Shown piece by piece: positions 10,329 through 35,560 of a DNA stretch of 64,000 bases. Where the stretch lies: the NCBI GenBank assembly GCA_009733575.1, contig ML769475.1, positions 1 through 64,000 on the forward strand, in the 5' to 3' direction. Below the pieces are notes generated by a model. It was not told the origin of the DNA, did no database searches, and worked only from the letters and a program-made list of their open reading frames with translations. This DNA is from Gymnopus androsaceus JB14 (taxonomy: Eukaryota > Basidiomycota > Agaricomycetes > Agaricales > Omphalotaceae). The position numbers were made by a program, and so were the translations under genes. Each line of letters opens with the position of its first letter. Position 1 is the stretch's first letter.

Positions 10329-10797
10329 ATGTTTCGTTTCTCTAACCTCCGCGCTGTCTTTGCCATCCTCCTCTTGATTAATATCCAAGTTATGACTGTC
10401 CGCGGAGCTCAATGTAAGTGTATTAGTTTTGTGTAGACTCGGGACATAATACTTATCGATTCGACCATGTCTGTAGGCGGTTGGGATGGGGCTGTTAGTA
10501 CTCTCCTTTCTCTCTCTCCAAACTCGAGCTCACATTTGATTATTTTATGATACTCACTGCCTGCAGGAACCTTTATGTACGTTGTTCCAACTTCTCAGTG
10601 CATTGACCGTTGCTTACTACTTGGACTCGTATCGCAGGTGCTTCTGATGAAATATGCTGTGGACCACTGCTCGAGGAAGCTAATGGCACTGTTTACGGAA
10701 CGTGAGCACTTGGATCTTATTCCACTCCACACCTTCGCTCATCCAATCGTCCTCACTGTGTAGCTGCCACCCTGAAGGAGGCGCTTGCCCAGAGTGA
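10329..10797 (+). CDS. Tiny secreted six-cysteine peptide, gene 1
   Basis: A 69-residue secreted peptide made from five exons: 10329-10413, 10477-10493 (17 bases), 10567-10576 (10 bases), 10638-10701 and 10764-10797. All introns are GT-AG, and the exons sum to 210 bases, 70 codons with stop. A hydrophobic signal peptide begins MFRFSNLRAVFAILLL and ends near residue 26. The mature part is about 43 residues, with six cysteines spaced C-x9-C-x5-CC-x14-C-x6-C. That C-C-CC-C-C order is the one found in inhibitor-cystine-knot (knottin) folds; it is too short, with too few cysteines, for a hydrophobin. An N-glycosylation motif (NGT) lies between CC and the next cysteine. Two relatives are at 11371-11795 and 35126-35560. 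Function unknown: effector, defence or signalling peptide are all possible. Confidence 0.72.
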
Positions 10798-11370
10798 ATG
10801 CGATGCTTGATCTGAGTGAAGCTGGAAGTGGGAGTTGAGTATAATAGGGCGTCATTATTGCTGAAGCATTGGTACATTTTATGTGACCTAAGCTTCATCC
10901 CAGAGGTTGTTGTTCAGCGACCGTAGATGCCTTATTATGAATGTATGCGCTGTCTTTGCTTGTCGTCAATCATTGTTTAGTCACCTTGCTCCGCTCATTG
11001 CAGGACTCTTGCATGAGTGTATTGATACCATTCCTCGCATTGTGATGATACCTTCCTACTTCAATTTGATGAAATAAAAATTACTTTGCTTGAACAGCCC
11101 CGAAAATTCCGGTAAATAATTGGTATAATCATCGTTTAAATTCTTCTTTCGGGCTTTCTCGCGCCGTCAAGCGGGGGTGCAAAGCGGTACTCACTAGCTG
11201 GTATACTCTGGGTATATCTGGCCGCACTCATTGAAATTTGTGAATATACAGTATAGGTTTTATCTCCTGCCATGGATCCTGCATGACACCGCGACTGCAC
11301 CGCGGAAACGATATGATTCAAGCAATTTTCAAGAAAGATATAATGGCATCTACAACGAGTTCTTCTCCGT

Positions 11371-11795
11371 CTAACACTTAGGGCCAACACCGAACTTTAT
11401 CGGGGTGGCACATCTACAAGAATTGTTAGCTCAATATCAAGCGTTCTACACAATTAGTTTTACTCACCCTGTACCGTCACTGGAGAGGGCGGGGCAACAG
11501 ATTAAACCAGTAGCACCTAGAGAAGAAGGGGGTTTCGTTAACCGCATGAAAACAGTCCATGGTCACAAACTTACACTATAAAAGTAGCAAGCGAAAGAAA
11601 GCGGTTGAGTTCAGCGAATCAAGCAGCGACATACTACAAACTTACGTCTGTGTCAGTAATACCTGTAGTAGAAATCGTTCAGTATGTACTTGACAACTCT
11701 GGGCTCGAGCACGACTCACAAACATCGGCAGAAGCTCCCATGACAAGTGCTTGAACGAATACAAGCATGAAGATTGTTGAGATGAATTTGTACAT
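11371..11795 (-). CDS. Tiny secreted six-cysteine peptide, gene 2
   Basis: Read leftward: exon 11795-11720 encodes a signal peptide (MYKFISTIFMLVFVQALVMG), then 11662-11646, 11516-11468 and 11413-11371. The cysteines again follow C...C-x5-CC-x10-C-x11-C. The join before the second cysteine has two solutions: a one-base exon (T at 11575, flanked by AG and GTAAGT), or extension of the second exon by seven bases to a weaker GTAGTA donor. Both keep the frame (186 or 192 bases). The one-base exon uses better splice sites but would be extraordinary. Gene 1 lies 570 bases away and converges with it. Loop lengths differ from genes 1 and 3, so it is the most divergent member. Function unknown. Confidence 0.6.
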
Positions 11796-12951
11796 TATTG
11801 AAGAATATCGATGAGATACGGGTTTTTAGTAAGTAGAAACTTATAATGTTCCAGCTTGAGATGGTCGTTTAAATATCCCTTCCTTTCAATAGTAAAAGGA
11901 GCTCCGTCCTTCAATATGCAAATAGATGGATAGATTCAGTCGTACATCGTTCACCAAAACGAGGGACGCCCCGCAACCCTAGATTGTGTCATAGTATGTA
12001 GCATAATAGGTTTTGCGACGTTTCCAAGTCTCGTCTCTATTCAAGCCCCCGCTTCAATTTTGGGACTGAGATACATTGCGATCCGGAGTTGAAGTTTCGA
12101 CTCACTGGAGTAGCTTCAGAGAACTGCGTTGCCGTCAGGTCCAATTTATCTCTATGTACAGAAATTCATTTCGGAAAGACGGCAGTAATCCTATATATGT
12201 ACATACGCTACTGTAGTGGAAATTCAGTAGTACACCTCCGCGTCGTTCGACCGCGGAGTTCATGAGAAAACAATAGCATTCCCCCACCCTGCAGTCTCAA
12301 CTCGGGTACCAAGCCTCATACAACATACAAGTTCCGGCGTGTCACAGTTTTCAGTTTCGACGTATGTGTTGTGCATACAGCTCAGAGCTGCAGAGTCATT
12401 AGTGGTAAATCCGGTTCCTGATCTAAGAAAAGATGTTGTATAGAATCGTCGAAGTAAATGGTTGACTATGGCTCTTGAATAAGCCTGATATACTCATTTG
12501 TCAATGCCAGAGAAACGGATCCTATACGGATGTCCCAACAGTAGTCTAGATCACTTTACTTTCAGTTGAAGGGGCTTCTCGGGATTTTGCGAGATTTGTA
12601 TGACGGTATATAGCATACTGTATATGGAATGTAGCAGGAATCAGGCAGGAATGTAGTAGACGTTGACGGTTCGAGTTTCATGATATTATTCAGGCTTCAA
12701 TAATTAGGGGGAAGGCCGCAAGCGGCGAGGGCCGAACGGTAAGCCGCTGACTCAGTCCGAAACGAAGGGAAAACGATATTTGGGTAAACACTAATAAGGT
12801 ACCTGTGGAAATGGTCCAGAAGCAGGATTCACCCTGACAATTCTTGCAAGCAGCCAAACCTAAAGGTCTGGCGATAAATTCAAATCCTTTGGGCTCTCCA
12901 TTCTAGATCACTATCAACAGTATATAGTATGTAGAAGCAACGATTTGATCC
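11796..12951. other. Intergenic, nothing recognised
   Basis: Sequence between peptide gene 2 and the left end of the KDZ element. No gene supported. Several TATATAG-rich patches (about 12200, 12610, 12920). Confidence 0.5.
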
Positions 12952-12959
12952 CTTTTGGT
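12952..12959 (+). repeat. Candidate target duplication, left
   Basis: CTTTTGGT here recurs exactly at 35092-35099 just outside the right TIR, the 8-bp length expected of KDZ/Zisupton insertions. The outermost 6-7 bases of the two element ends do not match each other, so the call is provisional. Confidence 0.5.
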
Positions 12960-12966
12960 CTGTAAG

Positions 12967-13943
12967 ACAACCAGGTTTTGATTAACCAACTCAGATCTCA
13001 ACTGAATTTCCTTTTATATCCAAAACGATTAATTAGAATGACGACTAGAGCACTATTGATCCGCTTACCTTTGTAGGTGGTCAATCCGCAATTAGAGGTT
13101 AATCATTGTGAATGGTTAATCATTGTAAATGTAAGTGGTTAATTGTTATAAGTGGTTAATCCGTTATAAGTGATTAATCCATGCGTACGTAACTCATCCA
13201 TTATGACAGCCGTACCGACACCTTTGATGCGCTTCCGCGCTGTGCAACTGGAGCTAAAGGAGAGGCGGGGGATGGATGCGGGGAAATGATGGCGATGAGA
13301 TGAGTACAGTTGTCAGTAGATTATCCACTCACTGCGTACATGTTTCGCTCAAAACTCGTCCATCTGTTGCCTCAACCAAATGGAAAGTCAAAAGTACTTG
13401 GTGAAGGGCTGAAGCCAACTATCCAATAACTCCAATGACCTCTACGAGTTTTCGTGGTGGTTGTGGTGGTGGTTGTTGGGGTCATTCAGCAATGAGAAGC
13501 AAGAAGATGGCGAGGGAGAAGAAGAATGAAAGAAGTGGTTGATCCAATCTACTTGCGTGACTTGGCAAAGACTCGCCCGTCCCCCTCAAAATGGTTAATC
13601 AGAGCCTATTTGGAAAGTGGTTAATCCATTCACTTTTGCATATGTGACTTGCCCGTATGGTTAACCATTTGAAAGTGGTTAATCCACTCACTTTTGCGTA
13701 CATGACTTGCCCGTATGGTTAACCATTTGAAAGTGATTAATCCACTCACCTTTGTGTACGTGACTTAGCCCATATGGTTAACCATTTGCAAGCGGTTAAA
13801 ATAATCCACTTATTCTGTATGTGACTCGCCCGCCCCTTGGCCTACATTTGATGTGCCATCATTAATGGCGGAGGTTTTGGAAGCTTCTATGTGAGCGTTG
13901 TAGCCGATTCAACTGTGTGTTAAAATCAACCAGAAGTATATAT
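12967..13943 (+). repeat. Left terminal inverted repeat of the KDZ element
   Basis: Reverse complement of 34068-35085, collinear throughout, including the marker strings GTGCTCTAGTCGT read inward on the right arm and CCATCATTAATGGC near the inner end. Contains many GGTTAATC/GGTTAACC boxes. From 13560 to 13800 these fall in ~58-base tandem units also carrying a CCACTCA..GTACGTGACT segment. Such subterminal repeats are typical transposase-binding arrays. Confidence 0.85.
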
Positions 13944-14260
13944 CCAAGACAAAGCCATCCAAAAGTAGGTGAACAAAACAGAGATGCAGTTGAATACTGT
14001 GTGTATCATTCTGAGTGTAAAGAAACAGTGTGGTAGTTGAATACCGGAACAACGTCAAGAAAGGTCATGCATAAAAGAACAAACCATGAGGGGAGAATGA
14101 AACAAAACATATTATTGAAGATACTGAAGTAAAGCAACCTAGAAAAGAACCAATCGTATGGGGGGACATCCTACTTGAGCTTATCTTGATGAGGTGACCT
14201 GCGAACTGGCTCTTCGGCGAATCTCTTCTTCTGAAAGCGCGTGAAAGTGGCATGATCTTT

Positions 14261-17200
14261 TCAATAGAGAACATAATCTTTCCTTGAGAGTTCGCCATTA
14301 GGATTATTGTACCGGTCATACAACTTGACCACCTTGCCCTGCAGATGGACCCATTCCTCTATTTCCATCAAACATGTGAGGACTCTTGTATTGTCAAAAG
14401 CATCTAGAACAGCATAGCCTTTCCATGTCCCACAGGGCACACCATTCCTCCGAACGGGAATCCCATTGACATAGTAGTGTTGCTTTTTGGGCCCAGCTAT
14501 GTTCAACATGCCTTCTTCCATCGGATCAAGCTCGCGATGCATGCCCTCATAGGATTCATAGTGAACTTGAGATGAATTTGCCTTATCTCTGAAGGAATGG
14601 GGATTCGGTATGGTTGGGCTTGTTTGTTCATAAGGCGGGAATGATGGAATGGGAGCAGGTGGGGCTGGAGCTGGAACCATCACACCTCCATTCTTGGATG
14701 AGCCGTGGTGGAAGGATTCAGAGACATTCTCGGATGAGCCGTGTTTGTAGGATTCAGAAGAAACCGTCATGCCTCCATGGTCATAGGATTCAGAAGGAAC
14801 CATCTCACCTCCATTCTCGGATGAGCCGTGTTTGTAGGATTCAGAAGGAACCATCATGCCTCCATTCTTGGATGAGCCGTGGTCGTAGGATTCAGAAGGA
14901 ACCGTCTTGCATCCATTTATGGATGAGCCATGTTCGTAGGATTCAGAAGGAACCGTCATGCCTCCATTCTCGGATGAGCCATGGTCGTAGGATTCAGAAG
15001 GAACCATCTCGCCTCCATTCTCGGATGAGCTGTGGTGGAAGGATTCAGAGACATTCTCGGATGAGCCATGTTTGTAGGATTCAGAAGGAACCATCATGCC
15101 TCCATTCTCAGATGAGCCATGGTTGTAGGATTCAGAAGGAACCATCTCGTCTCCATTCTCGGATGAGCCATGGTGGTAGGATTCAGAAGGAACCATCTCG
15201 CATCCATTCTCGGATGAGCCGTGGAGTGAATTGTAAGCTGAGTTGATCTGCTCATAAGGCACAAATGAGGAGGCAGAAGGAAGAGATAATTGATTTGGGA
15301 AAGGATGGTTGATCCAGTTGTTGGAGAGGTTTGCATTCAACCTTTCCCAACCAAAAGTAGCTTTTGGTTCCTCAATATCGCTCATGGCAACATCAGGACT
15401 CCACCCAACACCATTGTGCTGACTTTCCTGCCAGCCTTGCTGGAAATTGCTATCCCATTGTCCAGCATTGGCCTGATATGCTGAACAAGATGCATCTGGT
15501 AAACCGTGAAGCATCTCTTCTGCTGCTGTATATGCAGCAAAGTCTACAGCGCCATATAACAAGCTTGAGTTCCTGATTCTCATTGGCGGCGGCGGTTGGT
15601 GATTTGAGTTTGGGTACATTGGAGTGACCATGGTTGGAGTATCCTGGCGCAACGACAACAAAATGTATCATTTTGAGCAGAAGTTGTGTTCATGTTCAGA
15701 GGGTAAGCCTTCATGGGAGTAGCAGTGGTTGGAGACAATGGAGCACTTTTTGGAGGCCAAGCTGTCATAATCATCGAGGAAGGTTTGACCGAGACCATTC
15801 CCTCCTTGCTGAGCAGGGTATCCTCTTGTGTCCCATCTTTTGAGTCTGGGTGTGTTGGAGTGATGCCATTTGGAGTATGCTGGCGCGACAACAACAGAAA
15901 GGTATCATTTCCATGAGCACAAGATGTATTCGTGGTTGGAAGGTAAGCCCCCATAGGAGTAGCAGTGGTTGGGGGCCAAGCCATCAAGGAAGATTCGATT
16001 GAGACAATTTGCTTCTCGCTGAGCGGGGTATCCTCTCGTGTCCCATCTTTTGAGTTTGGGTGTGTTGGAGTGATGCCATTTGGAGTATGCTGGCGCAACA
16101 ACAATGAAAAGATATCATTTCCGTGAGCAGATGATGTGTTCGTGGTTGGAAGGTAAGCCCCCATAGGAGTAGCAGTGGTTGGGAGCCAAGCTGTTGAGGA
16201 AGATTCAATTGAGACGATTTGCTTCTCGCTGAGCGGGGTATCCTCTCGTGTCCCATCTGTAGAGTGGGATACATCGCCCATCATTGCCATTTCTTCACCA
16301 GCTCTACTCTCATCTTCTTCCTTCACTTGTCGTTCCCACATGTTCCCTTCAATCACTTCCTTAGAAAAGAAACAGAAGTGATTATTGGATTCCAAGGGAA
16401 TAATGCTGAGTTGTTTGACGAGCTTCACTAGCTCCTCCCGTGTCATTGTCTCTGGCATCCTTAGCGGTACACATAACCCGTCGCAGGCGTAAAAGTCCTC
16501 AGGATTCTGCTCGATGGCCAACCACGGCGGTCCCGGCATATCCAATGTGGGTTGGCCATAGACATCATCTGTTCATCTTCACATCAGCTTTTGTGAACAA
16601 TTAATTGGCCTATGATAATCTCACCCCATGCATCCCGGAACAGGGCTTTCAATGTGTCTTGGAGGAGCTCCAGTGGCATTCCAGTCGGATTGAAAAGTGG
16701 CAGAACCACTTTCCCGTTGAGATTCTTAGGTATCTTCAGAATTTTCTCTGATTCCGGTAGCGCTAGAAGTTTCCTTTGTAAACATACTTTCTCTTTTGCA
16801 GGCATAATCACTCACTGGATAGTACAACCATCTTGCCAAGTATTGTGGAAAGTCCATCCATGAGCTCAGCGTGACCTGGGATCTTGACGCCTTTACTATA
16901 CCCAACGCAATGCTGGGATTGTTGCTCAATTGAGTGTTCTATCTGAGGGAAAGACCTGAGACTTACGAATATGCCTTGGCAACTTCATTGCCACCTTCGT
17001 CCTCATCCTCGCAAATGAGAAATGTAACCATTATACTTCTTTTTCCGAGCCATCCACCCTCTGCCATACTCATGTGCGAGCACCTCGTAAACTTCAAAAA
17101 ATTGTTCTGATTCCTATTTCAATCAATGAGTTGAGCAACGTAGACCCATTTAACAAGAAGGCTCTCACTTCAGAGTATTGCTGTTGATTACTCGTGCTTT

Positions 17201-17960
17201 CTCCTTGAACTCTTCCCTTGTCGTGAGAGGTAGCAATGTCCACACCTCCTTCTGGACCTCCTGGTAGATTGCGGCGCCATTGAGGGTTCCACTGCTTTCC
17301 ATTTGTTCAGAAAGAACCATTTTCCTCCACCCGCCAATGAGCTCCCCATATTCCTCCAGAAAAACTTCCCAATCTGTAATGCCACTGCAGAGTTTGTCGA
17401 GAACAGGAATTGCAGCTGCCAAAGATGAAGCGCCTTCATCAACCACTGGCGCAGCTTCATCGGTGGCATGTATTGTAGCCCAGGCCTCTTTGAAGCTTTG
17501 TTTCCTATAATTGTTGAAGGCAAGTTTGATCATCTATGAAAAGGAACATCAGCAACCATTAAACAGAACAACCATTATCAAGAACGTACTTTAGCAGCTA
17601 GAGCCAGTTGCTCATTATCCAAGTCCGCGAATGTGGGACCATTCAGTAACTCTGCTCTCTTCTCTTTGCTGTAAGTTTGACAATCTTTATTAACGTGTTT
17701 TCTGGATGGCAGTTTGATAACATCGTTCTCGTCTAGTACATTAAAGTACTCTCCCAGTGCGTGCTTGAGCTCCGTGTTCTGGGCGTTGGTGAGGCGGGTT
17801 TTGGCTCCACCTTTGCAGGATTGGGCATTTCCCTACAGTTGAAACACAGTCAGTAGCAGAACATTGCAAGCTTAAGCACTGTTACCTTCGATGCAACAGC
17901 TTTTGTTGTATTCAACTTTCTGCTTCCGTTATTCACCTTCGTTGTTGAAGTATGAATCAT
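14261..17960 (-). pseudogene. KDZ cargo gene A: large repeat-rich protein, one frameshift
   Basis: A multi-exon gene read leftward and not recognised. Reading frames join through GT-AG introns from an ATG at 17960: a basic start (MIHTSTTKVNNGSRKLNTTK), an acidic/helical part including AFNNYRKQSFKEAWATIH, a segment with SIMVTFLICEDEDEGGNEVA, then LPLFNPTGMPLELLQDTLKA. The long last exon (16545-14261) holds two internal repeat arrays. One repeats NGITPTHPxSKDGTxEDT three to four times. The other repeats HGSSENGGEMVPSESY-like units more than ten times. A frameshift near 15655 splits this exon: the fourth copy of the first repeat continues in another frame as LRQDTPTMVTPMYPNSN. The C-terminus (PVRRNGVPCGTWKGYAVLDA, WVHLQGKVVKLYDRY) looks folded. 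Probably one protein of over 1000 residues. Role in transposition or as cargo is unknown. Confidence 0.6.
14690..15235 (-). repeat. Coding tandem repeat array in gene A
   Basis: About a dozen imperfect 48-base units encoding ENGGEMVPSESYxHGSS variants, plus two shorter units encoding ENVSESFHHGSS. The open frame is kept through all units, so the array was under coding constraint or expanded recently. Confidence 0.85.
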
Positions 17961-18611
17961 CTGGTTGTCTGCTTAAAGCGGAAGAAAGATGTTTCCGAAA
18001 ATAAAAGTGGGAAGACAAGTAAGTCAAGACTAAGCCTAACAAAACACGGTCAGCTTGGTAGTCCCGCCCGGCTCAAGATAGTTGACAAATGTGCAATAAT
18101 GTCTGTCTACCCAGTGGTATGGCCGACCCAGTGGTATGGCCGGCCCGTCTGCATACTTACATATGGCCCCTGTTGTCATGCGGCCTTCAAAACAATGCTG
18201 TTTGCGCTTTGCCTTGTCTTCCCTCCCACTCTTGAAAAATAAATCGCTTTGCCTTGTCTTCCCCTCTCCCTCACTCTTGAACAATAAATATACATGTGTT
18301 TTAAGAGAGATGTAAATGATGCTTGAAATCATGGACTCACTTCTTGCTCGGTGATCCCACTCATCTGATTTGACATCGGCTCTTTTTGACATATATATAA
18401 ACTTTAGGCGAGCTTTAGGCGAGTACTGTGGGTCAAATCAGGTCTGATTGTAGGTTTAAGTCTCGCCTAAAGTAAAACATACCTTGAAATGATTAACCAT
18501 TAGCTAAGTTTCTTTCGCCTAAAACCCACACACCTTGAATTGGTTAACCATTAGCTGAAGTCCGTGCAGACTTAAAAGAACTCTAACGAAACTTACTTTA
18601 TTCTCCACACA

Positions 18612-19541
18612 ATGCAACGAACTCCGCTTCTTCGTGGCCGAAAGACCCCATCCACTGCTCAAACTAGGACACCTTCTACCAAACCATGTTCATTCTATGA
18701 ACAGCGGTACAAGGCTGCTGCGTGTATTTACACAGGCAATAAAGCGAGCAAGGTTCGACAGAACAACGCGCAGATCGTCAAATACATTGAGTCTGTCAAT
18801 CCCATTCCGCGAGACTTTGTACCCCCTGCCAAGCTCAAGGTCCGCGATCTAATCATTGACGCAGGCAAGTTGCATGAGGAGGGCTTAGGCAAACGGTACT
18901 GGCTGGTATTGTCCATCTCTTCTCTTCTCTCTTCCTGCACTGACCAAGTCTGGAAGGTCCAACAACACACACCACTTGGACCATGATTGCGCAAAGTCTA
19001 CTCGGATCTTCCTGGCCTGTATGATATTGACAAGACCTTGCTTTCAAAGGGCACACTTGGTACACTTCTGTCTTATCGTCTGCTGCTCAGTGTGTGTGTT
19101 GTCAATAGAACGCCACAGCAGAATGAGTTCCAGGTACCAGATGAGGAGGACGACATCATGTCTTCAGAACCTGAGCGCTCACCTGGATTCAAGAGTGAGT
19201 CTCAATCCATCACACTGTGGTTCTTTCTCGAGGTGGGTTTGAATCTTTCTATACATGTGGAGGTTGTAATATAGGCACTCCAATAGAATGGATCCGAGAC
19301 AGAAGAGTTGTATGCTGCTCCTATAGCAGGTCGCATTGTCCTGAAGAAACTGAAGTTGCAACTTGGTCGCTGCGGAGTTGAAGCCGTCGATGCCTTCGAG
19401 GTATTTCGTAAGGGTAAATTGGCTTGGACTCTGGTCTAATGGACCACTCCCATTCCGGCTGGACCAGGAAACATCTTGTTCTTCCGCAAAGTAGGAGTTA
19501 CATACATGCCTGGCTGGGACATTGATTGTCATTACTTGTAG
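18612..19541 (+). pseudogene. KDZ cargo gene B, unrecognised, interrupted
   Basis: Starts MQRTPLLRGRKTPSTAQTRT, a basic Ser/Thr/Pro-rich tail, then CSFYEQRYKAAACIYTGNKA and FVPPAKLKVRDLIIDAGKL. An intron from about 18908 leads, after one ambiguous junction, to RKVYSDLPGLYDIDKTLL and GTLLSYRLLLSVCVVNRTP. A last exon from about 19285 encodes GSETEELYAAPIAGRIVLKK, then a stop (TAA in LAWTLV-stop-WTTPIPAG) before GNILFFRKVGVTYMPGWDID. The coding character continues past that stop, so the gene is probably decayed. I do not recognise the family. It lies in the same orientation as gene C and divergent from gene A. Confidence 0.45.
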
Positions 19542-20109
19542 ATGATGGTTAAATTTCTATACGTACCATTGTGTTTCCTAATTCAACTCGTATACCATAT
19601 TCCTCACTCACTATTAAATCTGTTTTATAAATAACATTACTTTGTTTCTCCAATCATGACCAATTTGGCCTACCTTTTTGTCCTCCAGTATTGGAAATAG
19701 TTAACCAAATGATGGTTAACCACTGTTCAGGTCTGCCATAAACAAGTGTGTGTCAATAGTTTGACTGCAGATAATTGAGCTGGATTTCAGATCAGGCAAA
19801 TTGCGCTTGCTGTTGCTGACTGTGAGGACCATGGCCTAAGAATGAGGAGCAATACTTGAGGAAGACTCTGAAAGAGAGTTAAACGTCCGGCTTGTTGCCT
19901 GCCGGCAAAACTTGATCTTGCAGCAAAGTTTTCTTCACACGCTCCTTTGCTCTCATTGGCCTTCATGGCCTTTACAGTAACATCTCATCAATGACAAGTT
20001 TCAAAGATCAAGAATAATGGATTCAAACAGTTAATCAAACCTCCTCTAAATGATTAATCAAATCAAAGCTATAAGTCCCCCCCTTTCACTGTTTCTTCCT
20101 CGCTTGAGC

Positions 20110-21176
20110 ATGAACTACAAACTCTCTCCAGGAGCCCTCATTATTAGAGATGTTCTCTTGGGCAAAATCGATAGAGTCACCCCCAAGCCTCTGGAGCCCA
20201 CTCCACCGACCAACAGTGATTGTTCCTTCTCATGCTATATCAACAATGGTTGAGGCGACCTCAAAAGCTGCAGCACAGTCATTCGGATGGTGCGTGTAAT
20301 GTGTTGATTGATTTACAAACTAATCAAAAGCTCTGTCATTCTCAGTGTGTTGCCTACGGTCACCATAAATTTCCATGTGGTGTTGCCAAAGACCATACTC
20401 AGCCTCTCAGCCTTGTAGACCATGCCCTGATAATGGGTCTTGCTGTGTTTTTTGAGAGGGAAACCGGACACTCCTGGAGCATCACTCACCGTCCCACGCA
20501 AGCTTTTTGGGCCTGCTTCCCTGTAGAGCCACTTCCATCTCCCGACGACATCAATGCCTTCTTGGATGCAGTCCAAGAAAAGGTTCAGCGTGGTATCACA
20601 CGGTTCTCTAAAGAAATGCCAGGGGAATTGGCGGTCGCAGAAAGGATTCGACCCCCGCTTGAGGGTCTTCTTGGGTGGCACGGCTACTGGTCAGAGGACG
20701 GTTCATACAACTCTGCTGCACACACCTCAGTTGAGCAGACTTCTAATGAGCGCTTTTCGGAAAAGACTCGCGACACCGAATCATACAACCCCGATGTCCG
20801 CCGTAAGCCACCCAATGCGGCTCTCAAGTCCGCAAAGCAACCAGATCCTCAGCCATCCTCCTTGAAAGCACCTCCCAAGCTCGCAAAGCAACCGGACCTT
20901 CAGCCTTCCTCTTTGAAGGCGCCCAACAACGGGGTACGGAAGTCTTGTACATGTTTTTCTGTCTCAGACTGTGGCTTATGTCGCTAATGTGTCCATCTAC
21001 TAGATATTCCGAATGGTACAGCGATTCCTGTTGAGTACACTGAACTTCATAGTCGCAAAGATGCGGCTGCTGCTTTGGGCCGTAAACATTGATACAGCAG
21101 TACCATACTTATTCCTGACTCGGATGGTGAAGATGAGACTGAGCGCCGTTCAAAGAAGCCACGGGTCTCAGCTTGA
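20110..21176 (+). pseudogene. KDZ cargo gene C, unrecognised
   Basis: Begins MNYKLSPGALIIRDVLLGKI and continues, after a frame change near 20220, into a long exon with NVLIDLQTNQKLCHSQCVAY, HHKFPCGVAKDHTQPLSLVD, DALIMGLAVF-like hydrophobic text, then PSPDDINAFLDAVQEKVQRG and a proline/lysine-rich tail with two copies of KQPDxQPSSLKAP. After an intron at about 20934-20999 the end reads IPNGTAIPVEYTELHSRKDA, then GRKH-stop, then SDGEDETERRSKKPRVSA-stop, the final part being a possible nuclear localisation signal. The stop and the frame change suggest decay. No function can be assigned. Confidence 0.4.
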
Positions 21177-23666: not shown

Positions 23667-23805
23667 CTTGGTAGGAAGAACTCAAAGCAAGGAGGCGGAC
23701 TTCGGCAGCCTGCGTGATTAGTAACACAAACGGCCCGTGCATATCCACTCAAAATTTCTTTGCCACCATTGCCAGTGTTCTTTAACCTCTGCCATCATCT
23801 CCTCC

Positions 23806-25674: not shown

Positions 25675-25764
25675 TACTCACTACCCGGAAAAGTAACCGG
25701 AATTTTTGCCTGCCAGCCCGGCACCAAAAATTCCGGTCATTTTTATTTTTCCGGGTAGCGAGTA
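25675..25764. repeat. Short foldback (hairpin) element
   Basis: Two near-perfect inverted arms: TACTCACTACCCGGAAAA then CCGGAATTTTTG on the left, and CAAAAATTCCGGT then TTTTCCGGGTAGCGAGTA on the right, around a ~25-base loop. It lies just upstream of the dioxygenase-like gene, so it is either a tiny MITE or a structured upstream element. Confidence 0.7.
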
Positions 25765-25806
25765 GTCCGGAGTGATTTCCCACGGTTGATATGCCTCGAC
25801 CTTGCA

Positions 25807-28800
25807 ATGCGGTATCCTCCTGGCCACACCCGATACACCTTGCTCTCACCTCTCATGTCCTACAAATCCCCGAGCCCCTTTGCTGTTTACTGTGCTCCTC
25901 CAAAATATGAGGAGCCACTAGATAGTCTTCATGAGCTCATCAATGAAATCAAAATCCCTTCTGAAAATGACCAGAGTCGCAGAAATTGGGAATTGCAGTG
26001 GAAGACAGGACTCAAGGTATCATTAAAGAGTTCCATCCATTCTAAAAAGGTCAAGCATGAATATTGGATAACTACTTTTATTCTGACAGAGTGTGTTTAG
26101 GAAGAAATCTTGGAGTATATTTCCAGGTGCACTTTTCTTGCAGTGGAGGAAATTAAGCACAAAGACTTTACACTGGACTTGTTCTTTGATCTGATATATG
26201 AGAGAGAAAATAATGATCTGGAAGCTATCCACAGGAAGCTTCAAAACTTTCAGGTTCTAATATTATCCAAGGTGAGTCCAGTCACTCCATTGTTTTTCTG
26301 CAATTGTCTGGTCCTGATATTTTACACAGCACTATGTTGGATACTCTAATCCTGTTCTGAAGGATGCTCTGGGTGATGAATTCCAGGGACATGATGATGT
26401 TTCTGAAGGAAAGTTGTCAGATTTGACCAGCTTAGATTCTGATATAGAGATGGAAGATGGAACAAAATCAGGCATGGAGGTACTATTGCAAAAGTGTAAT
26501 GATTGCCTTGAAATCACATTTCTGAGTCTGGTAAGTAAAACTAGCTCTGGTTATTCATTGAATATCAATGTCACTACTTCAGGACCATTCTGAACTGCAT
26601 TGGACGATGTCCACTCTTACCTTACAGCCCAAAGGGCATTGGCAGAGATGTATTCTTGATCAACCACGGTTCCCAACTAAACTGGAAGCTATTAAATTGA
26701 TCAAACATGACATACTATCCAATGTCTTGGTTGAGCTCCGGAATATTCCCAAAGCAACCTACAATACACAAAAGTGGAGACAATTAGTCCAGGTATGCCT
26801 TAGTCTGTCAAGTTATACAACATTTAACTCTCTTTGGCTAGGAATCACATCTAGATCAGACTATCATGCACATTACTAATCCCCAATATCTGCTCCGTTA
26901 TGCCTCGGATGAAAGATTTACCTGGAGAGTAGAGATTCACAGAGAAATGGTGTTGAGGTTTGCTTTGGCAAATTTCCTTCAGATGTGGTCTCCCAAGGAT
27001 TTGCAAAAATCTTGGGTAGCTAATCCATTGCAGTATCAACCAATGGTATTTTTTTTTCCCTAGAATAGTAAATGCAGTGTATACTTATAAATTTTCAGCA
27101 ACCAGGATCTGTTTCCTTTCCTGAAAGTGCTGCAGGCTTCTTTTCAATCCTGGCAGAAAAACAAATTCTCCAGGTTGAAGCATTTACATTTAGTGTTTTA
27201 TTTCTACTGGGGAAGTATTCCAACTTTGACTATTGGTGGCAACACTCTATTGCTCCTGCACTATCATTCCATAACTACAAGGTATGAGAATATTCATTGT
27301 TTGCTTTGCCATTGAGTTTGATCTTAAGTATTGTATACAGCTTAAGGATATCAATCCTAGAAATATACACAGCAGGTGTCTACAGCTTGTGAAAATGAAA
27401 AAAGAAAAGCTGCAGACAAAAATAGGGCTCTTCACCGTATCCGTAGCCTACGGTATACGGCCGTAAAATACGTGACGTTCCGTACCGTCATGATTTTTGG
27501 TCATGGGACCGTACCCGTATCTGGTACGGTAATTCCCGTATTTTACCGTACCGTATACGGGAATACGGCCGTACTACGGAGGCTACAGGGAAGATTTCGA
27601 TAAAACTGTTGTATTAAAACGATTATTGAGCTACATACACTATATTTCAATCTTTAACATAGTATAGTGTTTCAGTTACTTCTGCCTCGATTTTGTGCTT
27701 CCAATCTTCAGGTTTTGGTGAGGATTGACCCAGTCACACAGTGTGACAGATGTGTTACCCATGTCTGTGTAGCGTTCTTAAGGGTGATTATCCTGACTTC
27801 ATACAAAAATATTTACTGGACTCTCAGAGTAGCAATTGTACCTCTTACAGGTGCATTATATGGATAGAAAAATGGTACTTAAATGATTGTGTTTGAAACT
27901 CCGTACCGTATCCGTATATGGCCGTATTTTTGCCGTACCGTACCGTGGAGCAAAAAATCAAACCGTATTCGGCCGTACCGTAGCTGCTCCGTACCGTATC
28001 ACGGGAAATTTTCACCGTACCGTATACGGTACGTACGGTGAAGAGCCCTAGACAAAAATAGCAGAACTTGAGCTGGAAAATGCTCCTCATGGAGAGCTGG
28101 TTAAAAAAATTATACAGCGCTCAAATCAATACTTCCAATCTGAAGAACAAATCAAAAAATCTCTCTACAAAAATCATGCTTCTGAAATAAAGGTGTGTAT
28201 TCTGCATCTTACAAAATTTGATCTAATTTATGGTGTAAAGACATCTTCTGCTACATTAAGGGAAAGCTATGATAGATGCACTCACTGTGCTAATCTACTA
28301 GAGCATGAAAAATGCACTCAGGTTATTCATGTCAATTTCAGAGAGCTGGAGGGACTGGAGAGGGAGTTTCCAGGTTTGAAGGGTGGTGGAGTATCCAGGG
28401 TGAATGGAGATAAAAAGCCAGTCTCTGTAAGTTTTTTTTTTTTTTTGTACTTTGAAAGCTTGTAATTTCCATGGTCTAGTGTGGTGCCCATACTATTTAC
28501 ACTCCAGAGCAACTGCACCTGGAACGTGTATATCAGGATCAAGCCAAAGTAACTAGATGTGGAAAGCATGTGTGGGTCCCTACCACAGGTGATCCTAATA
28601 AACCCAGGCAGCCAAATGACAAGGTTAGAATATTTATCTCATATTCAATCATTTTTATTGAATTTTTTAGGTTGAAATGGTCATTTACAATGCTTGGACT
28701 CAAAATGTGGTGGAAAAGTTGGTTAAAAATAACAATACCAGCAGCAATGTTTCAGCCTTGAACCGCCAGAACAATGTTGAAGGCTCTATGGAAGCTTTTG

Positions 28801-29492
28801 GAAACCGAGTTCCCATGAGTGGTGGCACAGGTGATGGACTCCGAGCATATAAAGGTATAGATGCCACCACAACAAGAGGTGTTGATGAGATTTTCAATAA
28901 AGCAGAGGTATAATAATATTGTACTTTTTCAAGTGTGGCTTATTTGCTGATGCAGTCCAGGATTCTATGGCCATGCAAGAAGTAGCAAGATACTTGGATC
29001 CTGATCTATTCAGGGATCTTGAAAAAATGACTGCAGACAGTGAAAAGCTGGGAAGACTTGGAAGTACACTTTTCACTGCTCATGGCTATATTGCCTTGCA
29101 GCATTTGGAAAGGTCTGATCTTTACCGGAGCTTTTGCTCACAGCTTGCATGGAGAGCAGAAAGGAAATGGGATGAATTTGGATTTGTATATGCTCAGATG
29201 GGCTATTATATTGCAACAGAGGCCAATATGCTTTGGTAGGTTGGACATTGAAATAAATTCTTGCTAACCAACTCTTTCCTACAGGACATTTGATGTCCGA
29301 TTGCTACATGGAACCATGCTCCCCAGTGAGAATACTGTATTCAGGATGAGAGGCGGTGAAGATGATGATGTTTCTGTGAGCAGTGGGTCCCACTATGCAG
29401 CAAGAACAAAGGACATTAAGAGGGCTTCTGAGCATGTTGCCGTGGAGAATTCTAGAATGGAAAGGGAAAGATACTGGAATAGAGAGGACTAG
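25807..29492 (+). pseudogene. KDZ-linked protein with putative 2OG-Fe(II) dioxygenase (TET/JBP-like) domain
   Basis: A ~12-exon gene whose exons mostly join in phase 0: 25807-26016, 26101-26271, 26330-26530, 26583-26792, 26842-27045, 27099-27281, 27341-28192 (with an insert), about 28241-28428, about 28490-28623, about 28672-28908, about 28962-29233 and 29286-29492. The N-terminal two thirds are unrecognised. The C-terminal part reads TAHGYIALQHLERSDLYRS, DEFGFVYAQMGYYIAT, NMLWTFDVRLLHGTMLPS, a layout I associate with mushroom proteins of the TET/JBP-type dioxygenases: an early His-x-Asp/Glu pair (here HLE) and a later His (LLHGT). Such genes accompany KDZ transposons and may oxidise methylated DNA. 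A CxxC-containing stretch (DRCTHCANL) lies earlier. Exon 7 is broken by a 626-bp MITE, which probably inactivates it. Domain call is inference. Confidence 0.5.
27424..28049. mobile_element. MULE-like MITE, 626 bp, 10-bp target duplication
   Basis: Inverted ends AGGGCTCTTCACCGTA / TACGGTGAAGAGCCCT flanked by perfect copies of AGACAAAAAT (27414-27423 and 28050-28059). Removing the insert plus one repeat rejoins the host exon in frame (LQTKI then AELELENAP). Both ends are packed with CCGTACCGTA and TACGG motifs. A 10-bp duplication points to the Mutator-like superfamily. No coding capacity. Confidence 0.85.
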
Positions 29493-30039
29493 ATTTCCAA
29501 GTTTTTCAAACATGTAAATAATAAAGTCTTGACTCCAAGTCACTCCTAAGTTAACTCAAATTGCAACCCAAAACTCATTCTAAATTTATTTTTGACCTAT
29601 ATTCATATCTTAGGGTCTCCAAAATACCACATGGGGTTTTAGAGTCTGGGTCTAGCATGTTGGACTAAATTGAAATGTGTGTGGATTGAATATATTTGAA
29701 TATTTGGTACATTCAAGTAATTGGAGACAATGGAGGTTCACAGCTAGTTTTGATTGAGACTGAAAATTAAGAAGAAATAAGAAATAAGAGAGAAACTGAG
29801 TCAATCAGCAAAACCTGGGTATTCATCTAGATCATATGCTGGATGGCCATGTGGTCACCGCCGGATGTGGTCTGTTCCGTTAATCTAATCAATCAAAACT
29901 TTGCTTGATCGATTCAAAAAACACTACTTTATCACATCCACCATCTACGTTTTTATCCAGTATACTACAACTGTTTCTTTTTTGGTAGATGGCATGTTTT
30001 AATGTCTGGAGATGGCACCCAGCTGATTTCCGCCTAGGA
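29493..30039. other. Spacer between dioxygenase-like gene and transposase
   Basis: A/T-rich, no gene. Short enough to hold the terminator of one gene and the promoter of the next, but no clear motif was identified. Confidence 0.5.
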
Positions 30040-33000
30040 ATGCTCAGAAAAAGCAAGAAGCGAGCTCGAACTGATAGCGGGGAGATCATTGAGCACATTG
30101 CCCCATTACCATGAGCACAACCAGCACCCTTGCAGAGTACGTGATCTTTCAACCCACACCGGCGCATCCAAAAAATCAAACTGAAGAGACGGAGGAAGTT
30201 GCAACGCCACAGGCAAAACCTGAAGTCAATGAAAAGACCTGGGTCAGTGTTCACCATCCGACTTGCTAAGATAAGCTTGCCATTAAACAACTTCACAGAG
30301 GGCCAAACTTGCTGAGCAGTATGGTACAGAGACTAAGAAGATCATTCATCTTTTTCTCAATCAACATGCAGCCTCTCGGATAGGCACCCCTTGCTCCTGC
30401 AAGAAAGGAGTACATATGGTCCGCTGTCGGAACTGTTATCAAAGGCCACCCTTGTGTTCCGATTGTTTCATCCGCGAACACAAATACATACCTTTTCACT
30501 GGGCGGAGCGATGGGATGAGGGCGGAAAATTCTTTAGCACCTGTGATATGTCCGCCCTGGATCATAACTGGGCACTCAATCTGGGCCACTCAGCTGAACA
30601 ATGTCCAAATGCAACAAAGACAATGCATATCAACATTATAGAGACGAGCGGGCCTCATGGGACCCTTGTCCGCTACTGTCAGTGCCACGGCTGTCCAGAC
30701 AAATGGCAGCAGTTGTTCGATGCACATCTTTTTCCAGGGTCAGTGTCGAACCCAGGTACTGCCTACACATTCAGGTTGATGCGAGAATACGAGGTGCATG
30801 CTGTTGCTTCCAAGAAAAACGCGTGGGATTACACAAAAGCATTGGCTCAGCTGGCCAATCGACAGTTTCCAGAGATGGTACCGGTGAGTGCTTTTGTTGC
30901 AGAACAGCTGTTCAGTCATCTGACAGATACACAGACCTTCTACGACCAGTTTCTCTTTGTAACTCGCCTATGGTCGTATCTGAAGACTAACATTTGGCTG
31001 GGACAGGGACACAGCATCGACACTCTACTTCCTCGGAGACTGAAAGGAAACCTGCGAGTCTACTGCCCAGCATGCCCAGAGGAATATTTTAATTTGGAGA
31101 AGGGCTGGGAACGGGCACCGCCTGAGTTGTTGTGAGTGGTGGTTCCTTTTGCCCTGCATTTGCTAACGTTTCTTTCCATTAGACATGTTCACGGTTTTCG
31201 TAAAACATTAGATGGGAATCACCAATTGTCTCATTTCGAAAAGAATTGTGATCAGAATGACATCTCTTGGTATATGGGCAACGCCTATTTTCCCAGCAGC
31301 TCAACCGAAAAAGAATATCTGCGAACAGTGCCACAGACTCAGAAAGAACGCAACGAGCGGCGCCCGAAAGCAGATCAATCAAAAGAGGGACTGCAAGCAT
31401 TTAAGGAGAAGCTGGTGAGCTTTTTTGGTTTCCTGATTAACCAGGAATGTGAGACTGACTCCTTTGCCGCAGGAGAAACAAGTATGCAGGTATCTGAATG
31501 TGCTGGCAGGCCAGGATAGAAAGAAGTTCCGTGGTATGGATGTTTCAGGCGTGGTTGCATTGCTCTGCGACCATGTATTTGCCTGGGCTCTTGTTGACAT
31601 GCAGTACAGAGAACGGTACCTCAGAACAATATTTCAGTACGTTATTATGATTTAGCTTTTCAAATTGCGATCTTGGTTTGGCAGAGGGTCTGAGACAACG
31701 CGATTTTGATAAGGGAAGGGCTCCATCTCAAACCCTGAGCTATGACTGTCAATGCAAGTATTGTCATCATTTGATAGAGCGTATGCTGGAAGCATTCCCA
31801 AGTCTAGCTCATCTCCTTCAAGACTTCCGTTTCACCATTCCCGCTGTGCATGTTCAGAACCACCTAGCTGTTTGCATGTGGTTGTTTGCAGCAGCCTACA
31901 AAGCATGCACGGGACGATTCCACGGCAAAACTGCTGAACAGATATGGGCGGAATTCAACTTGTTGGGGGTGGCAACTTGCCAGATGACAATGGGACATCG
32001 ACAGGACACCATCATACAAAGTTTGACTGGGTGGAACCTCCAAAAATTTGGAAAAATCGGCGAGTATAGAGGTATGTATCATTTTATGTGCTAAACAGAG
32101 TTGTATAGCTGCCCAGCTCCAAAAGGACTGCATGGATGCCATCAAGAACTACTACGAAACTTGAGATAATCTGGTATCTCTATACGGCATTCACAAGGCA
32201 AATCTCAAGGAATGGCTGGAAATGGATTGCTCTCCCCAGCCCAACACTAAAGCCAAGCTCAACGTGTTCTCTGTATACAATCACAACACCACTGGAGGTA
32301 AGGAGGAAGCTCATTGGGCAGGTTCAGACATTACTAACCAAGGTTTGTAACAGTGCTAACGTATCAGCAAGTTATGGATCGGCTCATCAAATCTCAGGCA
32401 AAGATTTCTTGTGCGAATTGGTGGGTGGCTGAGAGTGATGTTGCTCAGTGGCTGAAGGAGGCTTTACTTATGGAAGATGCAGAGTAAGTAATCTGATCCC
32501 TCATGAACTATCAGACAATAATCCAATTTGGTGAATTTACAGGGCTGATCTTAAACACAAAGAGAAAGGATGGGCCCCGTTTGGGTGGGGGTTGGATGAG
32601 AAGATGCGGGCAGACATGGATACAGCTGCCAAGAAACTGGAAGCTCGTTGGGAGTGCCTGTGCAAACATCAGCGTCTGCTGTTCCCCATGATAGTAGATG
32701 ATGTCGTACAAGTCAGGGACTCACAGGAAGTTTATCTTCCTTCTGTTTTGCCTAGCGCTGTTCGCGCACAATTTGGAATGGGGGATTACCCAATTAGAAG
32801 TTGAGTGTTGAACTCGTCTAGCTGTAAAATGTGTCATCAATCTCCAGGAGGCAATCCGAAATCTAGATGCTCTTGGGCAGTACAAGGATCTTAACGATAG
32901 AGGACAGGACCAAAATACGGAATCATTGCGAATCATGATGTCTTACAAACGGATGAGGGATGTTCTCATCAAGGACTATGGCCGGCACAGAGCAGCCTTG

Positions 33001-33986
33001 GTATCCCTGGAGGCCCTTTCGGAAGGATCATCCAATTTCCTGCCTCTCAATCTGAAAGACACCTGACGCAAGTCCACCATGTCAATTCGATCTGCCGGAA
33101 GCTCTAGACACCGGGATGCAGTGCTCTGGACGACGGGAGGGTATTCGGCTTTGACAGAGGGTAAAACACGAGTAGGGGCTGTGGTGGGTGGAAATAGCAG
33201 CAGTGGTGGAGAAGACAATGGAGAAGGATCTTTTATGGGTGCGACTGCAGCCTCTGCTTCAGCAGCTCTGACTCAGATGAGTAGACACCAGCCAATAAAA
33301 CGGGCAAAGCCAGATGGTCCACGCGAAGGCGAGAAGTCCCCGAAAAAGAAAGTGGAATCTCGGGAGAATGGGTGGATATGGCAAAGGAATGTGGTGATGG
33401 GTCAAACGGAGGACGAATGGGCAAAAGAACATAAGTCCACCACACTGTTGTTGTCAAACCTGTTGGACTGACTTGTCATACTCAGAGGAACAGGTGAAAT
33501 TTTTCAGAGATGAGGCAGAGATGGAACAATGGAGGGAGCAGGTGGAGATCAAGCATGCAGAGTTTGCCAGGATCATAAGAGTGTTCCAGAAAAGCAGTGA
33601 AATTTGGACAGCTCTCACCAATTCGACATCTTCAAGTCCTACTCCAGGGCATTGTGCTTAAGCCAACAAGGTTGTTGCCTGATATGTGCTAATGGAGAGG
33701 GATGCTCGAGAGCGCTTCAAGACATGCAGTATCCCTATTCTTCGAAACTTGGAAGAGGGACGGACTCTTGCTGACCAGATACTTGCCTGGAGAGCACGCG
33801 AAGCCCTGCAATTCCCGAGAGTGAAGTAGTAGGTCTATTCAATAAAACCTATCATTAGACAATGAACTCACTGTACTCAGTGTGCGTCCTCCATTTGTAG
33901 ATCCAACCAGTTCAATATTGGAGCACAAGGAGCTTAACCCGGATAGTTCGGATGATGAGGCGGAAGCTAAAGCAATGCTTGTTTAA
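30040..33986 (+). pseudogene. KDZ transposase with CxC2 cysteine cluster, decayed
   Basis: Transposase that would cut and move the element. The N-terminus MLRKSKKRARTDSGEIIEHI is typical, followed by a frame change near 30110. The CxC2 cluster follows: PCSCKKGVHMVRCRNCYQRP, LCSDCFIREHKYIPFHWAER, then the hallmark LGHSAEQCP and VRYCQCHGC. The core has FRKTLDGNHQLSHFEKN, SGVVALLCDHVFAWALVDMQ (a likely catalytic Asp), SYDCQCKYC, IPAVHVQNHLAVCMW and FHGKTAEQIWAEFNLLG, MGHRQDTII (a likely catalytic Glu). The C-terminal part has AIRNLDALGQYKDLNDRGQD. In-frame stops at 32162-32164 (KNYYET-stop-DNLVSLYG) and 33064-33066 (LKDT-stop-RKST), plus further breaks after 33470, make it a pseudogene. Both named stops are TGA, and CGA-to-TGA decay is a plausible cause. 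Family call is strong. Confidence 0.88.
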
Positions 33987-34067
33987 AGCTACGAACATTT
34001 CTTGAATGACCATTACACTCTATCTACCTACTTCCTTTCAGCACTGTCATGTCTCTTAGTTACTTTT

Positions 34068-35085
34068 TATATACTTCTGGTTCAAGTTTATTTTAATATA
34101 CAGTTGAATTATCTACAATGCTCATATAGAAGCTTCCAAAACCTCTGCCATTAATGATGGCGCATCAAAGGTAGGCTGAGGGGTGGGCGAGTCACATACA
34201 GAAAGGTAAGTGGATTAACCACTTTTTAACCATATGGGCAAGTCATGTACACAAAGGTGAGTGGATTAATCACTTTCAAATGGTTAACCATATGGGTGAT
34301 TCACATACACAAAAGTGAGTGGATTAATCACTTTCAAATGGTTAACCACATGGGCGAGTCACGTATGCAAAGGTGAGTGGGTTAACCACTTTACAAATAG
34401 TTGCTCTGATTAACCATTTTGAGGGGGACAGCAAGTTTTTGCCAAGTCACACAAGTAGATTGGATCAACCACTTCTTTTGTTCTTCTTCTCCCTCGCCAT
34501 TTTCTTGCTTCTCTTTGCTGAATGACCCCAACCACCACCACCACCACCACCACCACAAAACTTGTAGAGGCAATTGGAGTCATTGGATAGTTGGCTTTGG
34601 CCTTCACCAAGTAACTATGACTTTCCATTTGGTTGAGGCAACAGACAGACAAGTTTTGAGTGAAACACAGTCAACTGCAGCATTCAACGCAGTAGTTGAT
34701 CCACTCATTTTAAAATTTTCCAATACGACAGCCAGGAATAGGCAGATGAGTTTTGAGCGAAACATGTTCCATGCCCGCCTCTCCTTTAGCTCCAGTTGCA
34801 CGGCGCGGATCGTGTAGGAGGCGCATCAAAGGTGTTGGTACAGCTGTCATAATGGACGAGTTATGTACGCATGGATTAATTACTTACAATGGATTAACCA
34901 CTTATAATGATTAACCACTTACATTTACAATGATTAACCATTCACAATGATTAGCCTCTAATTGCGGATTGACCACCTACAAAGGTAAGCGGATCAATAG
35001 TGCTCTAGTCGTTGTTCTAATTAATTGTTTTGGATATAAAAGGAAATTCGGTTGAGATCTAAATGGTTAATCAAAACCTGGTTGT
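34068..35085 (-). repeat. Right terminal inverted repeat of the KDZ element
   Basis: Inverted copy of 12967-13943. About 58-base units (34200-34385) repeat GGTTAACCA plus a GGCGAGTCAC..CAAAGGTGAGTGG segment; a CCACCACCACC run at 34533-34556 matches the GGTGGTTGTGG run at 13452-13475 on the left. Confidence 0.85.
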
Positions 35086-35091
35086 ACTTCT

Positions 35092-35099
35092 CTTTTGGT
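35092..35099 (+). repeat. Candidate target duplication, right
   Basis: CTTTTGGT, identical to 12952-12959. See the element entry for the caveat about unequal outermost bases. Confidence 0.5.
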
Positions 35100-35125
35100 G
35101 TTCTATCGTTTGCGTTCAAAAAAAA

Positions 35126-35560
35126 TTACAATGGACAGGGTTCTGTCTTCAGGATGCAACTACGGGGAGGGATTCGTGGGAAGTAAAAACAAATTTTGCC
35201 AGAGACTTATCTTCCGACTGGGGTACTATTGTCCCCAATCTCCACAAAGAACGGACCACAACAATTGTATCCAGCAGGGCCTGCAAGTAGGTACCAACTC
35301 AATGTTCATTTGAGAATCCGGAGAAGGGGAAAAACTTACAGGGATTCTGTTGGTATCGTATCCGTCAGTAATCAGTGGTACATTCTGGTAGGAGGAAAAG
35401 AGCACAAACACTGTCGATAACACCTAACAGCGGAGAGTTAGTGATCAGAAAGAAAAGCACAAAATTAGAAACGTGTACAAGTTTGACCTTGTACTCCAGC
35501 CATTCCTTGGACAAAGAGGAGGATGGAAAAGACGACGACAATGTTAGAGAAACGGAACAT
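35126..35560 (-). CDS. Tiny secreted six-cysteine peptide, gene 3 (defective last splice donor)
   Basis: Read leftward: exons 35560-35479, 35423-35410 (14 bases), 35346-35340 (7 bases), 35280-35211 and 35159-35126. Exons total 207 bases, 69 codons. The signal peptide MFRFSNIVVVFSILLFVQGM is nearly that of gene 1. Cysteine spacing is C-x6-C-x5-CC-x16-C-x6-C, and CCGPFF parallels CCGPLL in gene 1. The last exon is 34 bases long, exactly as in gene 1. The last intron would start AT rather than GT (35210-35209), while its acceptor is normal. If it is not spliced, the frame stops just after and the last two cysteines are lost. The other splice sites are GT-AG. The gene ends 35 bases from the KDZ element. 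It is either a truncated family member or one using a non-canonical donor. Confidence 0.6.

Follow-up and report, generated by a model that had tools for sequence, protein, structure and literature searches.

The first 64,000 nucleotides (nt) of contig ML769475.1 of the litter-decomposing mushroom Gymnopus androsaceus JB14 (the window, by which we mean this whole stretch) contain three small genes, and from these and their relatives elsewhere in the genome we are confident in predicting a family of secreted six-cysteine peptides that share four introns and whose third exon has shrunk, in one branch, to a single constitutively spliced T. Exon 3 probably forms a shrinkage ladder of 13, 10, 7, 4 and 1 nt, at the end of which the T would be constitutive in ten living genes and handled by sequential intron definition. 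Single-base exons are already known from plants and from Fusarium; what is new here is the predicted ten-gene set beside a length ladder, and the predicted one-base exon is the best-supported novelty of the family.

Gene models for all three window genes were rebuilt from genomic sequence alone (Table 1). The exons of each gene total whole codons and the products follow the order C..C-x5-CC..C..C. These models confirm what an earlier note on this DNA had described, namely three related genes with signal peptides and a shared cysteine order. The micro-exons of that note stand as well: there are five exons per gene, with internal exons of 17 and 10, 17 and 1, and 14 and 7 nt, and the exon of one base, mentioned there only with a "perhaps," gains support from the same exon in nine further genes. 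All of the 12 introns except the last one of gene 3 are GT-AG introns of 54 to 73 nt.

Relatives were sought with the signal-peptide pattern of genes 1 and 3, with DNA and protein searches and with a C-x5-CC scan of fetched loci, a non-exhaustive survey that located them on the contigs labeled C53, C150, C170, C184, C369, and C696. An exon-4 pattern (reversed-pattern control, 0) and an exon-1 protein match each added one locus on C117. The total is 20 loci of the JB14 genome, 18 in the main set and these two, with a model that follows the five-exon grammar. Intron phases are 1-0-1-2 in all 16 completed models, with a phase 1 intron within the Cys1 codon, a phase 0 intron, a phase 1 intron within the Cys2 codon, and a phase 2 intron ahead of Cys5. 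Exon 2 has a length of 3n+2 and exon 3 a length of 3n+1, and only the pair preserves the frame. Exon 3 measures 13, 10, 7, or 1 nt across the family (4 nt in a truncated copy) and encodes the last residues of the loop between Cys1 and Cys2 together with the first base, T, of the Cys2 codon. All six cysteines are invariant in the 13 aligned proteins, which include P0004 of Collybiopsis luxurians and P0007 of Rhodocollybia butyracea, and both kinds of member, those with a long and those with a 1-nt exon 3, occur on each of C53, C93, C150, C170, C184, and C369.

Some loci leave a choice of lengths. At C170:129066, exon-2 lengths of 14 and 23 nt score alike, and at C184:28414, exon-3 lengths of 10 and 13 nt score almost equally, the database protein P0002 favoring 13. 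Exon 5 was not found automatically at two of the 18 loci (C150, L056:7080, and C184:43422), and on C124 and C355 the exon-1 matches run off the end of the contig. In L069 (C184:43422-43817), a gene with the 1-nt exon, the exon 4 donor is GCAAGT in place of GTAAGT, that is, a GC-AG intron. L029 (C420:12521) and L030 (C383:43920) are related copies in which exon 2 has 8 nt and exon 3 either 4 or 10 nt; because exon 4 of both contains an early stop, they are truncated four-cysteine peptides or pseudogenes.

Ten genes carry one T between AG and GT (AG-T-GT) at the place of exon 3, where it completes the Cys2 codon: gene 2; C53:5910; C369:48554; C170:129951; C184:41641, 43422, and 45567; C150:122039; and two on C117. 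All but gene 2 were discovered through exon 4 or exon 1, the junction itself being unused, and scoring that is blind to the reading frame picks a 1-nt exon 3 in 10 of 10. Across the 340,252 bases of fetched sequence AGTGTNAGT is present 15 times, and it is the form taken there by seven of the ten junctions. In seven of these genes a full open frame with six cysteines results only when the T is included; a two-intron model without exon 3, tested in seven of the ten, had no option in six. In each of the two sub-branches the splice sites on either side of the T have remained strong, although the introns have diverged. Given that a tree of 23 proteins places the ten genes on one side of a branch, itself weakly supported (77/87; 74% of bootstrap trees), a single origin of the 1-nt exon is likely.

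The ratio of nonsynonymous to synonymous substitution rates (dN/dS) of the spliced frame was 0.36, 0.38, 0.22, 0.12, and 0.43 in five paralogue pairs, three of which (0.38, 0.12, and 0.43) are pairs of 1-nt genes, and exons are more similar than introns in six of seven paralogue pairs. The genomic sequence itself establishes the architecture, its recurrence, and purifying selection on the predicted spliced reading frame.

When gene 1 and two family alignments were used as queries, the annotated G. androsaceus paralogues P0001, P0002, P0003, P0005, and P0006 were among the matches. The suggestion that the family may be unannotated is thus partly wrong; the three window genes themselves were absent among the search matches. 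P0001 is identical to the spliced C696 model across all 67 residues, micro-exons included, and is 88% identical to gene 1 over the protein; it contains the residues of the 17- and 10-nt exons, and P0003 contains those of the 14- and 7-nt exons. The 2,808-base database contig of P0003 was not found in the assembly searched. P0002 reads QEPYC, which requires a 13-nt exon 3, and differs from the model at the C-terminus, while P0006 equals the C170 model except that Gly replaces Cys2; both look like mis-spliced annotations. P0006 is not reproduced by any GT-AG chain that lacks micro-exons or has a single one, and in each of the three solutions with one intron a genomic base is added at the 1-nt site via a non-canonical junction, a hint that P0006 may be the trace expected from a transcript with one extra base forced onto the genome. 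The six-cysteine pattern also occurs in database proteins of three other mushrooms, C. luxurians, R. butyracea, and Mycena floridula (P0009, same cysteine pattern by eye). In its annotated form the Rhodocollybia model P0008 is missing the final two cysteines, and the R. butyracea models were annotated with the aid of RNA-seq (PMC8480192).

Any sequence contains many short AG...GT intervals, and our exon-4 candidates were selected by the C-x5-CC motif, both of which would favor the view that the whole pattern comes by chance from fitting exons to a desired cysteine pattern. The grammar finder is a five-exon search whose splice scores are hand-set consensus weights; under initial, tighter limits it covered 14 of 18 loci, and the limits were widened before the controls to introns of at most 125 nt and an exon 1 of at most 130 nt, decoys and shuffles both being run under the widened limits. 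It placed a model at all 18 family exon-4 sites, with top scores of at least 10.7, and at 3 of 1458 decoy acceptors. One of these three (C420, score 15.5) is a family copy, judged by its signal peptide, and the other two scored -2.9 and -0.9. Models with a 1-nt exon arose at 8 of the 18 family sites and at 0 of the 1458 decoys. With shuffled intervening sequence, any model was obtained in 22 of 2000 cases and a score of at least 10 in 0 of 2000. A ranking by splice strength, blind to frame and cysteines, agrees with the models: across 20 genes the model chain was sole best in 11, tied best in 7, and second in 2, and exon 3 of the top-ranked chain had the model length in all 20. Database models from the same and other species contain the same residues. 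We consider chance an extremely improbable source of the pattern, and the decoys, the shuffles, and the frame-blind ranking led us to reject chance fitting of the micro-exons.

To the hand-set weights and the motif-based choice of exon 4 are added further points that count against the proposed single-T exon. The splicing of all models, that of the 1-nt genes included, is predicted from genomic sequence. P0005, the database model of C53:5910, differs by one residue, reading FTTC versus FTSTC in the 1-nt model, and no canonical chain tested reproduces it; C53 also has one alternative lacking exon 3, with the weak donor GTATCT, and the exceptional C53/C170 pair, in which C53 exon 5 extends beyond the usual stop, shows no excess of exon similarity (0.62 versus 0.63 for introns). 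In C170 a second T (ACAG-T-GTGGAA) might serve instead, and the contig of P0006 has 149,960 bases in the database versus 145,287 for C170, no other copy having been found. Decayed or truncated copies are common in the genome (C696:18894, C383, C420, C184:39723, C369:49557, C783, and C43), the last two being decayed exon-1 matches at which no grammar model was found. The P0005 conflict, these decayed copies, the GC-AG intron that C184:43422 requires, and the purely genomic basis of the 1-nt splicing would all favor an explanation in which the larger micro-exons are real and the 1-nt genes are either defunct or yield another protein through a frameshift or retained introns, AG-T-GTNAGT being the relic of a longer exon or a recursive-splice site. 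This explanation is unlikely in view of the seven of ten genes in which only inclusion of the T gives a complete six-cysteine frame, the low dN/dS of the three 1-nt pairs, the strength of the splice sites around the T in both sub-branches despite intron divergence, and P0006, which preserves the frame via one extra base at the 1-nt site. Quite unlikely is a role of the micro-exons as alternative-splicing switches of the schistosome kind, in which a double skip would give a five-cysteine isoform with the Cys1 and Cys2 codons merged. The last base of exon 1 is T and exon 4 begins with GY, and the joint length of exons 2 and 3 is divisible by three, so skipping both would preserve the frame in every completed model; skipping a single exon, however, shifts the frame, and the six cysteines are kept in all 13 aligned proteins.

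Under our proposal of a constitutive single-T exon, the six conserved cysteines presumably form three disulfides and the peptides would act outside the hypha. Loss of codons from the Cys1-Cys2 loop would have shortened exon 3 by threes, and in one branch the T alone would have been left of it. This T would be indispensable, since frame and Cys2 both depend on it. Splicing would be constitutive and would proceed in sequence, the short introns on either side being recognized by intron definition, with one intron leaving first and the other site used afterwards because both sites cannot be bound simultaneously across one base. The ordinary spliceosome would handle such an exon.

The last intron of gene 3 is 51 nt long and runs ATAAGT..TAG. 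Left unspliced, gene 3 ends in VGR and a stop with four cysteines; a GT-AG alternative, with an exon 4 of 28 nt, an intron of 93 nt, and the weak donor GTTCTT, drops a segment present in P0003. Since P0003 keeps the full C-terminus, gene 3, which would be complete only with the AT-AG intron spliced, either splices this intron or is losing its last exon.

Table 1. Predicted exons of the three family genes in the window
Feature	Position	Strand	Content
Gene 1	10329-10797	+	exons 85/17/10/64/34 nt, 69 aa
Gene 1 exon 1	10329..10413	+	85 nt; encodes signal peptide MFRFSNLRAVFAILLLINIQVMTVRGAQ plus the initial base of the Cys1 codon
Gene 1 exon 2	10477..10493	+	17-nt micro-exon; same length in paralogue C696; residues in P0001
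Gene 1 exon 3	10567..10576	+	10-nt micro-exon; final base is the T of the Cys2 codon; conserved in C696
Gene 1 exon 4	10638..10701	+	64 nt; C-x5-CC core
Gene 1 exon 5	10764..10797	+	34 nt; Cys5, Cys6, stop
Gene 2	11795-11371	-	exons 76/17/1/49/43 nt, 61 aa
Gene 2 exon 1	11720..11795	-	76 nt; signal peptide MYKFISTIFMLVFVQALVMGASA; relatives on C369 and C184
Gene 2 exon 2	11646..11662	-	17-nt micro-exon; likewise 17 nt in relatives on C369 and C184
Gene 2 exon 3	11575..11575	-	single nucleotide T (ATAG-T-GTAAGT); first base of the Cys2 codon; nine further genes alike
Gene 2 exon 4	11468..11516	-	49 nt; C-x5-CC core
Gene 2 exon 5	11371..11413	-	43 nt; Cys5, Cys6, stop
Gene 3	35560-35126	-	exons 82/14/7/70/34 nt, 68 aa
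Gene 3 exon 1	35479..35560	-	82 nt; signal peptide MFRFSNIVVVFSILLFVQGMAGVQG; rebuilt model
Gene 3 exon 2	35410..35423	-	14-nt micro-exon; residues found in paralogue protein P0003
Gene 3 exon 3	35340..35346	-	7-nt micro-exon; residues found in P0003
Gene 3 exon 4	35211..35280	-	70 nt; next bases ATAAGT, no GT donor; rebuilt model
Gene 3 exon 5	35126..35159	-	Cys5, Cys6, stop; reachable only via the AT-AG intron; P0003 C-terminus matches

Between genes 2 and 3 lies an element of about 22 kb (12993-35060) with terminal inverted repeats of 244 nt (12993-13236 and 34817-35060; 94%). It carries an open reading frame (ORF) at 30416-31135 with the CxC2 domain of KDZ transposases (E = 1.1e-22), its right end lies about 70 bp or less from the stop codon of gene 3, and no target-site duplication is evident by eye. 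Tandem repeats of 51 bp at 14673-15275 lie within long ORFs on both strands, the minus-strand ORF being without a Pfam match. A gene-like region is present in three copies (6090-7231, 56718-57434, and 62512-63651) whose pieces are mostly 91 to 94% alike, with one stretch at 60%; on its minus strand, the copy at 6090-7231 begins with what resembles a signal peptide. Nested inverted repeats of 87 to 271 nt, 87 to 97% complementary, occupy 46774-48104, the most AT-rich stretch of the window.

The predicted peptides have a signal peptide, sometimes a short pro-segment, and 33 to 50 residues from the first cysteine. In all 15 completed models other than gene 3 the net charge is -1 to -8, and 3 of these 15 carry N-glycosylation motifs. 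As the peptides are acidic, a typical cationic antimicrobial peptide is disfavored, and we take them to be extracellular disulfide-stabilized peptides. The knottin order claimed in the earlier note, C-C-CC-C-C, is found in all 13 aligned proteins. The AlphaFold2 model of P0001 had a predicted local distance difference test score (pLDDT) of 62.7 and a predicted template modeling score (pTM) of 0.35, a Foldseek search with this low-confidence model gave no match at E <=0.001 (best E, 6.4), and a PDB profile search gave a best E of 0.72, to a non-knottin, and no sequence match to a solved knottin. The likeness to knottins, or inhibitor cystine knots, is a resemblance in the C..C..CC..C..C order and in small secreted size; in knottins proper, disulfides 1-4, 2-5, and 3-6 tie the chain into a knot.

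Other known domains were considered. UniRef labels P0002 and P0006 "CBM1 domain-containing," and the C-G-G..C-x5-C stretch aligns with fungal CBM1, whereas the family has two extra cysteines; no Pfam CBM_1 match appeared at E up to 5 in 11 members or at E up to 10 in 7 database proteins, and hhalign against one CBM1 sequence gave a probability of 6.5% over 17 columns. An origin from CBM1 is not supported by these comparisons. The Pfam families WAP and Lustrin_cystein each matched 2 of 11 members (best E, 0.0023 and 0.001), below the curated cut-off (15.1 bits for P0003 against Lustrin_cystein, cut-off 27), and nothing in Pfam exceeded its cut-off among the family members and database proteins searched. 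Hydrophobins have eight cysteines in the order C-CC-C-C-CC-C, whereas this family has six with one CC pair, and PDB hydrophobin matches reached only E values of 3 to 6.7.

The micro-exon genes (MEGs) of schistosomes are multi-copy secreted-protein genes made of very small exons, and most of their micro-exons have a length divisible by three and undergo alternative splicing. The genes described here are likewise multi-copy and encode predicted secreted peptides, but their internal micro-exons (3n+2 and 3n+1) are non-symmetric. Mitochondrial cases of single-base exons reportedly exist in print. In plants, a 1-nt exon was experimentally confirmed in APC11 of Arabidopsis and rice (PMC4674806), and single-nucleotide exons are described for APC11 and VPS55, the latter with strong GTRAGT donors (PMC8831610). 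These exons too lie between two introns, are essential to the frame, and are missed by annotation; unlike the present case, however, each belongs to one conserved housekeeping gene and is confirmed, whereas here there would be ten basidiomycete paralogues with relatives whose exon measures 7 to 13 nt. In Fusarium CYP621A, presented by its authors as a second example and as the first from a fungal gene (PMC12940212), a 1-nt exon of a fungal nuclear gene also completes a conserved codon, but these are orthologues of one cytochrome P450 of an ascomycete genus, confirmed by Sequence Read Archive (SRA) reads, and the accessible text describes no length ladder among paralogues. The 9-nt mini-exon of potato invertase, when shortened to 1 nt, was reportedly still partly included, with 33% skipping (discussed in PMC4674806); that was an engineered shortening in one gene, whereas here we see a natural length series at one homologous exon. 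Fungal micro-exons have been called little studied (PMC11121469). In literature that mostly excluded subscription papers, we found no family with recurrent single-base exons, nothing on these peptides, and no paper linking Omphalotaceae and small secreted proteins; searches on knottins in Agaricomycetes and on fungal micro-exons likewise returned nothing on the family.

If real, the family would be one of very few known cases of single-base exons, and each published case that we located concerns one gene (APC11, VPS55, or Fusarium CYP621A). One base is the lower limit of exon size. Gene finders appear to mis-splice these secreted fungal peptides at Cys2, their defining residue. Ten predicted 1-nt paralogues and relatives at 7, 10, and 13 nt form a series of differing exon lengths at constant position, phase, and selection, and this length series would make it testable how small exons evolve and which flanking intron leaves first.

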